Below, piece by piece: positions 10,584 to 21,304 of a stretch of DNA of 24,817 nucleotides (position 1 is its first letter; each line of letters opens with the position of its first letter). The notes under the pieces were generated by a model. It saw only the letters and a list, made by a program, of their open reading frames with translations, was not told where the DNA came from and did not search any database. Made by a program: the position numbers and the translations under genes. This DNA comes from a virus, in IMG/VR virus record IMGVR_UViG_3300043398_000121, positions 1-24,817 of that record; one strand, 5' to 3'.

Positions 10584-10599
10584 TATCATAAATATGATA
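10584..10599 (-). promoter_or_regulatory. Candidate late promoter/operator: inverted repeat with ATATTTAT upstream of the gp25-like gene
   Basis: The short leader of the structural operon contains TATCAT-AAAT-ATGATA, an imperfectly centred inverted repeat ending 5 bases before the ATG. On the coding strand this includes CATATTTATGAT. There is no good TAnnTTTG/TTG promoter here, although a terminator lies just upstream, so the operon should need its own promoter. Assignment as a late promoter is inference. Confidence 0.3.
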
Positions 10600-15276: not shown

Positions 15277-15311
15277 TAAAACTTATCCTTAAAACTTGTG
15301 TTTATAAATAT

Positions 15312-18128: not shown

Positions 18129-19031
18129 TTAGAAAGGCAAATCATCCTCTTCTTCCTCAACGGTAGAAGTTTCGGTTTCAGTAGTTGGTTCAGTTGCCGC
18201 TTGCATGTTTGCTTTAACTGTTTCAACACCCATGGTCAATTCTGAATCCAATGTTTGTTTTTCAGCTTCAACAGCATCCAAATCTTTCTTAGCAACGAAA
18301 CACTTGTTTTCTTTATCCCAAACTGGTTCTTCGCCCTTAACAATGATTGCTAAGTAATCGTATGAACGCACGGAATAAACATCTTCCCATGTTCTTGTGT
18401 CTGACAACCAAAGTGCAGCTTTTTCCGCATCCTCACTAAGTGGGCTTGGGTCAAGGGTAGCAATACCAGATACAACAGGAACGTTGTTTTGGTTACGGTT
18501 AATTGTCAATACAATATCACGTCCGTTTTCAGCATGTGTGATATCTTTTTTGATAGCATTGATTACCGCATAGATTTTATCGTAGATACCTTCAGAACGA
18601 GAATCGTGGTTAAATCTCCAAAACTTAACACCTTCGTCTTCGTTAGCACGGTCAATCACTTTAACAACGTACATAAGACGTGCTCTGTAGTTACCAGCTA
18701 ATTTCTTATCCTCAGCATTACCTGTTGCAAGAAGAGCTTCACGTGCCTCACAGAAAGGACATGGTTCATTCTTTTCATGCTTTAAGCACGCAAATGTTTT
18801 GTACTCGCCATTAACTTGAATTTTATGTGCATAAAGTTCAACAAATGGGCTACCGTTTTCTACTGGTAAAATTCTGATTGTTTTTGTTGCTGACTTAACA
18901 CCTTCTGGGATAAATGTGTTAAAGTAATTTTTAAGGTCATAAACCTTTTCTGTTTTCTTTTCGTACTTTGGCTTTGCATTAGCTTCGTACTGCTCAAGCA
19001 TTGCTGCCAAAGCATTTTTCTGTTCACTCAT
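18129..19031 (-). CDS. 32: Single-stranded DNA-binding protein, T4 gp32-like (300 aa)
   Basis: Coats single-stranded DNA and organises replication and recombination. The zinc-binding cluster typical of gp32 is visible as C82, H85, C91 and C94 (ACLKHEKNEPCPFC). Length (300) is very close to T4 gp32 (301). The N-terminus has a short helix and basic stretch (KPKYEKKTEK) consistent with the cooperativity/basic arm, the core holds aromatic and basic residues for an OB fold, and the C-terminus is acidic. The last nine residues, EEEEDDLPF, look like the tip of bacterial SSB (DDIPF type), which T4 gp32 lacks. Two tandem promoters lie upstream with a 5' leader of about 130 or 45 bases; the nearest part of the leader is AT-rich and unstructured. 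The gene is first in the replication cassette. Confidence 0.93.
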   Translation of the reverse strand: MSEQKNALAAMLEQYEANAKPKYEKKTEKVYDLKNYFNTFIPEGVKSATKTIRILPVENGSPFVELYAHKIQVNGEYKTFACLKHEKNEPCPFCEAREALLATGNAEDKKLAGNYRARLMYVVKVIDRANEDEGVKFWRFNHDSRSEGIYDKIYAVINAIKKDITHAENGRDIVLTINRNQNNVPVVSGIATLDPSPLSEDAEKAALWLSDTRTWEDVYSVRSYDYLAIIVKGEEPVWDKENKCFVAKKDLDAVEAEKQTLDSELTMGVETVKANMQAATEPTTETETSTVEEEEDDLPF

Positions 19032-19071: not shown

Positions 19072-19094
19072 TTTCGTAATACCAATATACGAAA
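19072..19094. promoter_or_regulatory. Operator-like inverted repeat over promoter P2
   Basis: A perfect 7-bp inverted repeat, TTTCGTA-N9-TACGAAA, covers the -7 element of the proximal promoter of the gp32-like gene. Its placement would let a dimeric DNA-binding protein block that promoter, or the transcript could form a small hairpin. No regulator gene is identified in the window. Confidence 0.4.
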
Positions 19095-19113
19095 TTTTTG
19101 CATAAAAGTCAAG
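19082..19113 (-). promoter_or_regulatory. Promoter P2 of the gp32-like gene (Bacteroidota type)
   Basis: On the minus strand CTTG (19110-19113) is followed by exactly 20 bases and TATATTGG (19082-19089), close to the Bacteroidota consensus of an upstream TTG box and TAnnTTTG. Predicted start near 19077 leaves a leader of about 45 bases before the ATG at 19031. One mismatch in the -7 box makes it weaker than P1. Confidence 0.65.
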
Positions 19114-19168
19114 CGATTTTTTGATATTTTCGTGAACTTTTTTCGGGCTTTTTAAACCAGACTTGATG

Positions 19169-19200
19169 CAAATATACTAACTATTTTTCAATTATGCAAG
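19169..19200 (-). promoter_or_regulatory. Promoter P1 of the gp32-like gene (Bacteroidota type)
   Basis: On the minus strand CTTG (19197-19200), 20 bases, then TATATTTG (19169-19176), a perfect TAnnTTTG element. The 15-base sequence AGTTAGTATATTTGC is identical to that in the promoter at 21273, and both have CTTGCA upstream at the same distance. It lies just past the terminator of the preceding operon and would start the replication cassette with a leader of about 130 bases. Confidence 0.8.
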
Positions 19201-19210
19201 TACTTAGTGA

Positions 19211-19240
19211 AAATAAAAAAAGGGCCCTTAAGGGCCCAAT
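19211..19240 (-). terminator. Intrinsic terminator after the acidic-protein gene
   Basis: A perfect palindrome, GGGCCC-TTAA-GGGCCC (19222-19237), is followed on the minus strand by seven T residues and then more AT. It begins two bases past the stop codon region of the 267-aa gene and directly precedes promoter P1. An excellent rho-independent terminator. Confidence 0.93.
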
Positions 19241-19241
19241 T

Positions 19242-20045
19242 TTAAATGTCTGTTTCTATGTATCCATCCATGTCCTCTTCATCGTACATATCTGGCGTTA
19301 CCTTAAACGAGTCTTTTGCTGAAAACTCATTGTATGAGTTGTCCACGTCATCCCTCGTCAAAGTGTATTCTTTCGGTGATGTTGATTTTTCTTGATGCAT
19401 TACATCGTAAGCACCTTCCTTATCAGCCCAATAATCAGATAGTTTTTGATTGAATGGGTAAGAATCTAAAGACCTCATCTCTAACTTCTCCACTGGGGTT
19501 GGATTACGCTTGATTATTTCGTTTTCCAATTCCTCAATTTTGTTAGAAATACTAGCCATATTAGCAACCATACCTTCAAGGTCGGATAACTTTTGTAAAA
19601 GCATCTCACTATTTTTACTTGCCATTTCAGCAGATTGTTTAGCTTCTTCTGAACCTTGTACCAAATCGGTTACGTCCAACTCAACATCATTTGAATTGTC
19701 TTCTGGTGCCGAGTCCATAGGTGGTTCAGCAGGTGGGGCCGCATCTGGAGCTGGAGCAGCGTCTGGGGCAGGTGGGGCTGTTTGGTCTGTCGCTTGATTG
19801 TCTACACCTAAATCTGCCGCTACATCATTTGCAGCCGCATCTAGGTTAGCATCATCTTGTGCCAAGTCATCATTAGGTGCTTCATCAGCTTCTTCTAAGT
19901 CTTTACCCAATAAAAGTTCTTTACCACCTTCAGTATCTGAATAAGTGACAGGTTCCTTCTTTTCGGTGTAAAAATCGTACTCAGATAGGAGTCTGAACCT
20001 GTTTTGCTCTTCTTTAAGTAATTCTGGGTTAAACCTCTTTTTCAT
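19242..20045 (-). CDS. Acidic protein with Pro/Ala-rich linker and coiled coil (267 aa)
   Basis: Start overlaps the stop of the 59-aa gene in a TAATG junction, supporting coupling. The N-terminus is basic/amphipathic (MKKRFNPELLKEEQNRFRLL), residues about 50-88 are strongly acidic and Ala/Asp-rich, 89-114 form a Pro/Ala/Asp linker containing the repeat APDAAP twice, and about 132-180 look like a coiled coil (QSAEMASKNSEMLLQKLSDL, then EELENEIIKR). The C-terminus is again acidic (YDEEDMDGYIETDI). No enzymatic motif, signal peptide or membrane segment. I do not recognise the family. Such architecture fits a scaffold, prohead-core or adaptor protein; the location between a tail-hub operon and the replication cassette does not settle this. 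The Pro/Ala tract is noticeably GC-richer than its surroundings. Confidence 0.75.
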   Translation of the reverse strand: MKKRFNPELLKEEQNRFRLLSEYDFYTEKKEPVTYSDTEGGKELLLGKDLEEADEAPNDDLAQDDANLDAAANDVAADLGVDNQATDQTAPPAPDAAPAPDAAPPAEPPMDSAPEDNSNDVELDVTDLVQGSEEAKQSAEMASKNSEMLLQKLSDLEGMVANMASISNKIEELENEIIKRNPTPVEKLEMRSLDSYPFNQKLSDYWADKEGAYDVMHQEKSTSPKEYTLTRDDVDNSYNEFSAKDSFKVTPDMYDEEDMDGYIETDI

Positions 20046-20224
20046 TATATCAATAATTGTCTACCGTCTTCAGTGATTATTTTTTTGTTGATACGTTCAA
20101 CAAGGCTTTTATCGCCTTTGATTACGCAAACACCACTAGAACAATCCATTTCTTGATTTTCTAACATGGCATCTAAAGCCTTGTTAAGGTCTTCAGTGTT
20201 TTTTGGTGAATTTTGAGCATTCAT
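20045..20224 (-). CDS. Small hypothetical protein (59 aa)
   Basis: An open frame from ATG 20224 to TAA, read as MNAQNSPKNTEDLNKAL..., ending ITEDGRQLLI. Its stop overlaps the next gene's start (TAATG), the same coupling used elsewhere in this genome, and it fills what would otherwise be a 230-base gap. Two cysteines are spaced as C-x4-C (DCSSGVC, C28 and C33), which could be a redox or metal pair, and the C-terminal third is basic/hydrophobic (LVERINKKII). I do not recognise the family. The A-rich leader before the ATG (TTTAAAACT) matches neighbouring starts. Confidence 0.65.
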   Translation of the reverse strand: MNAQNSPKNTEDLNKALDAMLENQEMDCSSGVCVIKGDKSLVERINKKIITEDGRQLLI

Positions 20225-20277
20225 AGTTTTAAATTTTAAAAAATAGCGTTATTTTTCCTATAAATATCTAGTAATCA

Positions 20278-20679
20278 CTAAAAAACCCTTTCTATGTCAG
20301 AAATAGATAGGTCTTTACCATTTAACAAGATTATTTTGTTTTCATACTCAGACCAATTGATTTTCACTGACTTGTAATCTGTATTTCCAGGTTCAGAATC
20401 CGTCATGTTATCAATTAACCTATTTAAGGCGTTGATTGTGTAAAGAGTAGAACCCTTTTTATGAATAGGGATTGCATTAGGAAACAAATCTTTTAAATTT
20501 ATTCGCTTGGAATCTTTGGCAGTGAATTTAAACGTAACAATTACTTTTGATTCATCCCCCAAATTTTTATATCCAAACACTTTTCCTCTATCTATCTTAA
20601 ATTTGGTCTCCAAATAACCCAAGAACCATTCTAGTCTCTCAGGAAATATGAACGAAGCCAGTAACATTGTTTTTTCCAT
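20278..20679 (-). CDS. Hypothetical phage protein (133 aa)
   Basis: Overlaps the end of the preceding gene by 41 bases if the first ATG is used (MEKTMLLASF), or 29 bases from the second (M5, at 20667). The protein begins with LLASFIFPERLEWFLGYLET, continues with a basic/beta region (VIVTFKFTAKDSKRINLKDLF) and ends in LLNGKDLSISDIERVF. It looks like a compact alpha/beta protein with no membrane segment, cysteine or catalytic motif. I do not recognise the family. The overlap with the 209-aa gene suggests that the two are made together. Confidence 0.7.
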   Translation of the reverse strand: MEKTMLLASFIFPERLEWFLGYLETKFKIDRGKVFGYKNLGDESKVIVTFKFTAKDSKRINLKDLFPNAIPIHKKGSTLYTINALNRLIDNMTDSEPGNTDYKSVKINWSEYENKIILLNGKDLSISDIERVF

Positions 20680-21268
20680 TTCTTATCGAATATAAAAGTG
20701 GGATGTATCTCGATTTGTTGTTCAAAATCGAAACTGATTTTTTATATTCTATAAGTATATCGGAACCTTCTAAAAGCACTGTGGATATTGACTTTAGTTT
20801 GTGTTTTATCTTATCGACATCAACACCCATAAACTTTAAAACCTTAAAGTTTATCCCGAAAATGTAGTTGTCACCATACATATATGCCATATCATCAACT
20901 AGATACGTGATTATGTTGTTCATTGAAAAGATTTTTCTGACAATTTTTCTAAACGTTTTACCCCTATAATTTATAGGGTCAACATACAGATAAATCGACT
21001 TCTCTACATATGTATTGTAAGCTTTTTTTATGAACCACTGTAAGGTTTCTTCAAAATAATCCCGTTTCTCGGTTCTTTTAAAAGTCCAGTACTTGTCACC
21101 ACCTAAACACCTATCCGTAATGTCAAAATTAGGGAAGTGTTTATCAACGTAATCAAAACCAACATATAAAGTAGGGACACCCTCAACCAATTCGCTTTCT
21201 TTTTTAGCGATATTGAATTCTTCAGGTGCTTCAACCTTTTGTGTTGTTAAGATATTACCGATTATCAT
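20639..21268 (-). CDS. Hypothetical phage protein (209 aa), possibly from a leaderless mRNA
   Basis: The ATG at 21268 lies only five bases after the TATATTTG box of a strong promoter, so the mRNA would have almost no leader; the next in-frame ATG is about 110 codons further, so a later Met start would lose half the protein. The protein is rich in Lys, Tyr, Phe and Ile, with TLYVGFDYVDKHFPNF near the N-terminus, SIYLYVDPINYRGKTFRKIV in the middle and a basic C-terminal half. No membrane segment, zinc cluster or recognised catalytic motif. I do not recognise the family. Being first behind its own host-type promoter suggests early expression, unlike the structural hub gene just upstream. Confidence 0.72.
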   Translation of the reverse strand: MIIGNILTTQKVEAPEEFNIAKKESELVEGVPTLYVGFDYVDKHFPNFDITDRCLGGDKYWTFKRTEKRDYFEETLQWFIKKAYNTYVEKSIYLYVDPINYRGKTFRKIVRKIFSMNNIITYLVDDMAYMYGDNYIFGINFKVLKFMGVDVDKIKHKLKSISTVLLEGSDILIEYKKSVSILNNKSRYIPLLYSIRNGKNNVTGFVHIS

Positions 21269-21272
21269 ACGG

Positions 21273-21304
21273 CAAATATACTAACTTTTATCCAAAGTTG
21301 CAAG
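21273..21304 (-). promoter_or_regulatory. Promoter of the 209-aa gene (Bacteroidota type)
   Basis: On the minus strand CTTG (21301-21304), 20 bases, then TATATTTG (21273-21280). The core AGTTAGTATATTTGC is identical to promoter P1 at 19169. The upstream box touches the stop codon of the hub gene, and the ATG of the next gene follows five bases after the -7 box. Confidence 0.8.

Follow-up and report, generated by a model that had tools for sequence, protein, structure and literature searches.

Near-consensus host-type promoters ahead of two operons of an uncultured T4-like Bacteroidota phage, and putative attenuators ahead of tRNA operons in its relatives

Two operons and their matching promoters

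The window, meaning the whole stretch of DNA analysed here, is a 24,817-base genome fragment from an uncultured T4-like phage of the Bacteroidota; its genes accepted as real all lie on the minus strand. To judge from gene content, its source is a T4-like phage: a gp32-type single-strand DNA binding protein (ssb), a UvsX-like recombinase, and a 5' nuclease are encoded. The ssb gene comes first in the series ssb-uvsX-5' exonuclease-DnaB-NrdB-NrdA, and the ssb-recombinase-exonuclease-DnaB-NrdB-NrdA order is common to the window and Flavobacterium phage immuto. Its proteins have only low identity to those of cultured phages. Immuto, the cultured relative, hardly uses promoters of the kind described below and was dropped as a promoter reference: the gene order matches, the promoters do not. 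Membership in the bS21 phage group (PMC9723584) was also rejected, as the S21 gene is absent from the six relatives introduced next.

The window being a fragment, the genome-wide pattern search was run on six longer relatives (137-362 kb, 1.27 Mb together; including G001, G003, G005, G006, G010, and G012). The resulting family set holds 342 sense intergenic TAHHTTTG boxes from these relatives and the window. Promoter counts were drawn from related phages with a mechanical gene caller, and p-values refer to non-independent samples.

Table 1. Features of the window and of related phages
Feature	Position (strand)	Description
Site 2	21272..21304 (-)	CTTGCA, N12, AGTTAG, TATATTTG, then CCGT-ATG; +1 expected on A of start codon
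ORF 20639-21268	20639..21268 (-)	209 aa; conserved phage gene started by site 2; function unassigned
Further ORFs read from site 2	19242..20679 (-)	20278-20679, 20045-20224, 19242-20045; all conserved in relatives
Terminator	19212..19239 (-)	Rho-independent; GGGCCC-TTAA-GGGCCC-T7 (GGGCCCTTAAGGGCCC-T7); closes upstream operon just before P1
Site 1, ssb operon promoter P1	19168..19200 (-)	CTTG(CA) -33 element, 20-bp spacer ending TTAG, TATATTTG -7 box; +1 predicted near 19164
ssb operon promoter P2	19082..19113 (-)	CTTGACTTTT -33 element, N20, CGTATATTGG; full sequence CTTGACTTTTATGCAAAAATTTCGTATATTGG
ssb	18129..19031 (-)	gp32-like single-strand DNA binding protein; Pfam gp32 2.1e-18, PHROG 1192
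ATATTTAT, candidate late-promoter motif	20260..20267 (-)	upstream of ORF 20045-20224
ATATTTAT, candidate late-promoter motif	15304..15311 (-)	upstream of DnaB-type helicase gene
ATATTTAT, candidate late-promoter motif	10588..10595 (-)	upstream of gp25-like baseplate gene
CTTGACTTT subclass sites	window 19082-19113(-); G010 78986(-), G005 72649(+), G006 84577(-), G012 128700(+)	
242-aa protein, region-2 match	G003 66451-66621(-), G010 202119-202289(+), G001 47614-47784(-), G012 19688-19858(-)	
CUA-anticodon tRNA	G003 199106-199179, G010 44350-44423(-), G005 100009-100080	
Structured leader	locus L003 1300-1500 (minus strand; G010), G003 about 243.6 kb	
Leader/tRNA operon loci	L361, L471, L503, L360-L397, L468-L512; G003 208.8, 237.9, 239.5, 251.0 kb; G010, G005, G006	
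tRNA operon Cys/Val/Leu		leader ..NILVLLSLCLLV..
tRNA operon Phe/Glu/Asp/Ala		leader ..NIFDFAFFAAEED..
tRNA operon Pro/Lys/Gly/Gln/Tyr/Thr		leader ..TQTTYQTQYQPKGGKP..
tRNA operon Ser/His/Trp/Ile/Met/Asn/Arg		leader MRTINIHMISISNWRRNSH..

The initial annotation drew attention to two promoters that share an extended sequence, and exact search bears it out: the 33-base pattern CTTGCA-N12-AGTTAGTATATTTGC has exactly two copies in the window, sites 1 and 2 (Table 1), the positions first given having been one base short at the C end. The third promoter, placed at 19082, is likewise present as P2. Shuffling the window 100 times yields no copy of the pattern, and no other position in the window comes closer to the 15-mer AGTTAGTATATTTGC than three mismatches. 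A viral collection holds one further copy of the full pattern, ahead of a tRNA unit in a 362-kb relative; the 15-mer by itself occurs in at least 119 stretches. A Rfam search returned nothing convincing at the window promoters.

How unusual is this match? Among pairs of N20 promoters in the six relatives, all 21 chosen bases are identical in 9 of 21,115, these bases having been picked because they match in the site 1/site 2 pair. Over the whole 37-base element the two sites agree at 28 positions, within the top 3.8% of same-genome pairs. The match is thus far above that of random DNA and only moderately above that of two near-consensus promoters. Two same-strand copies with 21 bases in common, at a distance of 2.1 kb, might also mark a recent duplication of one promoter cassette, the identity then having no functional meaning; however, the 12 bases between differ, as do both flanks, and each site is independently conserved at its own gene in relatives, which already largely refutes this barely credible reading. 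The initial annotation had named many intergenic, co-oriented copies in a genome search as support. This holds for the promoter family in relatives (strand bias 68:8 and 53:4; reversed-pattern control, 0-2 matches), but the exact pattern occurs only twice in the window.

Site 1 lies between a terminator and a second promoter. The terminator folds with -14.2 kcal/mol, and most relatives have a G+C hairpin followed by a T run at its place. Pattern search gave 177 ssb relatives, of which 80 were kept. The order hairpin, P1, gap, P2, ssb stands ahead of nearly all those examined, and the terminator-P1-P2-ssb arrangement is retained in some 70 homologous loci although the spacers differ. TNG (TTAG or TCG) directly precedes the -7 box in 29/30 P1 and 34/37 P2 sequences of these relatives, in the tandem partner P2 as in P1; AGTTAG is kept at neither promoter. 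This arrangement suggests that P1 is the distal of two tandem promoters that would start the ssb-recombinase-nuclease-helicase-ribonucleotide-reductase operon right after the terminator.

Site 2 abuts its gene. The product of ORF 20639-21268 has 50-58% identity (tblastn) to proteins in about 70 relatives, with the same first methionine; no match was found among cultured phages. Across 42 distinct homologous loci, the -7 box and the ATG are almost always separated by exactly 4 nt (5 or 6 nt in a few of the rest, and a degenerate box in one), and this distance stays fixed while the -33 element and spacer vary. The distance from box to transcription start measured in F. johnsoniae is 4-5 nt (PMC6847099); in F. 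psychrophilum the box lies at -12 to -5, and leaderless messages make up 5.5% (PMC9723704). Together, the box-ATG gap and the F. johnsoniae distance place the predicted start at, or directly beside, the first base of the ATG. The fixed geometry provides the best evidence that site 2 would work as a promoter with a leaderless message, and site 2 would thus start the operon upstream of the ssb operon, with +1 on the A of the ORF 20639-21268 start codon. An exact 4-nt distance recurs in 31/326 boxes of the six relatives, where it forms a distinct peak; the DNA primase gene has this leaderless geometry in five of the six (G003, G010, G005, G001, and G012).

A host-type consensus

The family set defines a tight consensus. 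TTG lies exactly 20 bp upstream of the TAHHTTTG box in 208/342 cases and 19 bp upstream in 47/342. The extended element TNG-TATATTTG is the consensus of the phage family, because the bases before the box are T at -3 (76%), then A or C (69%), then G at -1 (59%). Among the 259 promoters with a -33 TTG, TNG precedes the box in 159, AGTTAG in only 8. A TTGGTA variant of the -33 element is found in 33/259 (G006, G005, G003), and in some of these the spacer contains an inverted repeat (TTGGTATTGTTAAACCACG..).

Bacterial genomes contain the same element. TTGCA-N14-TTAGTATATTTGC occurs in 88 stretches of an 84,980-prokaryote-species collection, the great majority from Bacteroidota and mainly from Bacteroidales. 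These host copies precede ordinary genes; none of 73 examined precedes a tRNA. Selection biased the host logo, and Bacteroidales boxes were therefore counted without sites picked by the pattern: TTG is exactly 20 bp upstream in 37/196 (an N20 peak), and TNG is present in 17/56 with TTG. Two Flavobacteriales genomes have little preference for N20 or TNG (TNG 6% and 19%), and the phage copies keep the strict 20-bp spacer and TNG more often than do primary-sigma promoters there; the phage's actual host may differ. TTG-N19-GTATATTTGC has only 29 copies in 60 Flavobacteriales genomes, versus 4 of a reversed control. Flavobacteriales tRNA promoters have TATATTTGCA in common with the phage element, but mostly a CGC discriminator and no TNG; on this ground, and because none of the 73 host copies precedes a tRNA, mimicry of host tRNA promoters was rejected as stated.

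Primary-sigma promoters of the Bacteroidota (sigma-ABfr or sigma-A) comprise a -33 TTTG and a -7 TANNTTTG (PMC6847099, PMC9723704). The phage sites resemble them in two respects: the box, TAHHTTTG in the general form and TATATTTG at both sites; and the upstream element, TTG or TTTG about 19-21 bp away in the host and TTG-N20 at both sites, N20 being the relatives' peak. At site 2, putatively leaderless, the 4 nt between box and ATG would fit the 4-5 nt from box to start in the host. Both sites can, on their sequence, be regarded with good confidence as near-consensus Bacteroidota primary-sigma promoters, with TTG, a 20-bp spacer, and the extended -7 element TNG-TATATTTG. The initial description of the promoters as host-type fits these findings: the element matches Bacteroidales promoters, and the same element precedes ordinary host genes. 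From the observed sequence, position, conservation, and distribution we infer recognition by host RNA polymerase, promoter strength, and timing.

Extended -10 promoters of Escherichia coli have the form TGnTATAAT. Here, too, a conserved G-containing element lies directly upstream of the -10 or -7 box, but in the phage the G stands immediately next to the box (TNG-TATATTTG), with a -33 element retained in addition. Recognition by a sigma region equivalent to that of E. coli is only an analogy.

The shared TTAG would thus represent the extended -7 consensus of the phage family and part of the host phylum. Combined with CTTG at -33 it would bring a promoter close to consensus and presumably make it strong; in relatives, this putatively strong variant clusters ahead of tRNA operons and ssb.

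The initial annotation had instead proposed that AGTTAG might mark a phage-specific promoter class or bind a phage activator. GTTAG and CTTG do co-occur (CTTG in 9/12 GTTAG promoters, p = 5e-4), and CTTG and GTT are commoner ahead of tRNA operons. Nevertheless, this reading is quite improbable: AGTTAG is present in few promoters and is not kept at orthologous sites, its TNG part is found in host promoters, and a search for a MotA-type activator gave no match. As a phage-specific mark, AGTTAG was rejected by the host genomes and by the orthologous sites of both genes: TTAG is the consensus of the family and is also present in host promoters of Bacteroidales, and AGT is not conserved. The activator proposal fares no better. 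MotA (PF09114) is absent from the window and the six relatives, the window and some of the records being fragments. In middle-type promoters of T4 the activator box replaces the -35 element and is common to every member of the class; the host-type TTG is kept here and AGTTAG is not conserved at orthologues, and MotA-type middle promoters were rejected.

Promoter classes in the relatives

Promoters of phage T4 are early, middle, or late, and its late box is TATAAATA. The relatives resemble T4 in that early and middle genes stand under host-type promoters, and a separate motif stands ahead of structural genes; they differ in that a MotA match is absent from the phage set. Host-type promoters are found ahead of ssb, primase, tRNA units, and numerous small genes. 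The idea of an early or middle class therefore survives in part: the family precedes ssb, primase, and tRNA operons, and a subset rich in CTTG and GTT exists, but AGTTAG is not its mark.

No structural gene among 54 has an intergenic host-type promoter within 300 bases; a looser scan, with boxes in coding sequence allowed, finds one at 3/54. Oriented ATATTTAT, by comparison, occurs in 196/382 upstream regions that lack a host-type promoter, against 8 expected, and within 150 nt of 31/54 structural genes. As ATATTTAT(A) it mostly lies 10-20 nt before the start codon. This suggests that ATATTTAT is probably a late promoter. The sense-strand motif is the reverse complement of ATAAATAT, and hence has the reversed orientation relative to the T4 late box.

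P2 belongs to a distinct subclass, CTTGACTTT-N-GTATATT, found ahead of ssb, of s1 (a phage sigma-70-type gene; four phages), and of two other kinds of gene. The s1 gene has its P2-like CTTGACTTT..GTATATT promoter 40 nt ahead in all four, and the -7 box of the subclass may end in TTTA, TTTT, or TTGG in place of TTTG. The subclass, common to ssb P2 and a phage sigma gene, is possibly a middle class with autoregulation.

These observations bear on the strongest rival to recognition by the host enzyme, namely that a phage sigma-70-type factor reads some or all of the promoters, such as those of the CTTGACTTT subclass to which P2 belongs, and thereby gives a middle class. In five of the six relatives there are one or two genes for sigma-70-type proteins (273-315 aa, with matches to region 2 and mostly also to region 4), and s1 and ssb both stand behind a P2-like CTTGACTTT promoter with variant box ends. 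Yet promoters of the P1/site-2 type are identical to the Bacteroidales host consensus, and G001, whose record may be incomplete, keeps the promoters with only the weak 242-aa type of match and no region-2 match of the s1/s2 type. A phage sigma factor is accordingly unlikely as the reader, and host-type recognition remains the preferred reading.

The 242-aa protein, 78-88% conserved, has a weak match to sigma region 2, and a PHROG match is absent for its G003 copy. It is possibly a late sigma factor.

Leader peptides and probable attenuators at tRNA operons

The CTTG/GTT variant has a characteristic place in the relatives. CTTG at -33 and GTT at -5 to -3 tend to co-occur, and both, with TNG, are enriched in promoters of tRNA operons over others: CTTG in 49/54 versus 56/238, GTT in 22/54 versus 13/238, and TNG in 51/54 versus 139/238 (related sequences throughout, so that p-values are only indicative).

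Two further observations concern the tRNA genes themselves. A tRNA whose anticodon is CUA, which ARAGORN labels Pyl and which possibly reads amber codons, begins no more than about a dozen bases downstream of a host-type promoter. Elsewhere a conserved and apparently structured leader, GTGTTTGAGAG..GTTCCTCCTCTTTATCGAAAGATAAATGAAACTT..GGTGGTATCAAACAC, directly follows a CTTGCA promoter and is itself followed by a tRNA; Rfam gave nothing at the gathering threshold for it.

Other tRNA operons have a leader open reading frame of 24-35 codons between promoter and tRNAs. G003, G010, G005, and G006 have up to four such operons, the third being absent from the available part of G005. The four operon sets are disjoint and jointly cover all 20 amino acids (Table 1). 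Three leaders, used as queries, found 38, 34, and 11 viral loci; one leader tried against cultured phages gave no match, and Rfam gave nothing convincing at a leader.

Leader composition follows the operon. At residues 7-19 of the 57 distinct leaders, 71-99% of the amino acids come from the set of the leader's own operon and 0-15% from other sets. For 277/285 downstream tRNA species, a cognate codon stands in the first 21 codons of the leader, versus 19% with leaders of other operons. Moreover, a terminator precedes the first tRNA in 56/57 cases, and in most leaders codons about 19-24 could pair with its 5' arm, and would thereby form an antiterminator. A pairing score of at least 10 is reached by 61% of leaders versus 7% of shuffled sequences, and the pairing is kept while the sequence changes (GTCGGGT/ACCCGAC, TCAAGGT/GCCTTGA, GGATGAGA/TCTCATCC).

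A leader frame with cognate codons, a terminator before the first gene, and a competing antiterminator are the features by which attenuators are known, and this anatomy is very probably that of ribosome-mediated attenuation of the phage tRNA operons. Attenuators of amino-acid operons have the same three features (PMC1183508); those of the phages differ in that they precede tRNA clusters, and in that one leader covers 3-7 amino acids and the four together all 20. No description of attenuation of phage tRNA genes was found in the open-access literature, subscription papers lying outside the search, and no such case was found in Rfam. A ribosome stalled for want of one such tRNA would free the antiterminator, and so would switch on the phage replacement tRNAs; depletion of tRNA by the host or by host defences is one example of a trigger.

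The fragment in the window contains no tRNA gene, and the attenuator system is linked to its phage through the promoter class of the relatives. Tentatively, the window's CTTG/extended -7 class may be the promoter class that feeds a tRNA-shortage-sensing regulon of four tRNA operons in those relatives.

Together, these results provide a promoter grammar for a large group of uncultured Bacteroidota phages: host-type early and middle promoters with strict N20 and TNG, a CTTGACTTT subclass, and the ATATTTAT motif. They also include a conserved, apparently leaderless gene; messages of this type form only a small minority in the phylum. Moreover, if stalling at cognate codons switches on the phage tRNA operons, then why phages carry tRNAs becomes directly testable, and the leader peptides would state what the phage senses: a shortage of each tRNA that it can replace.
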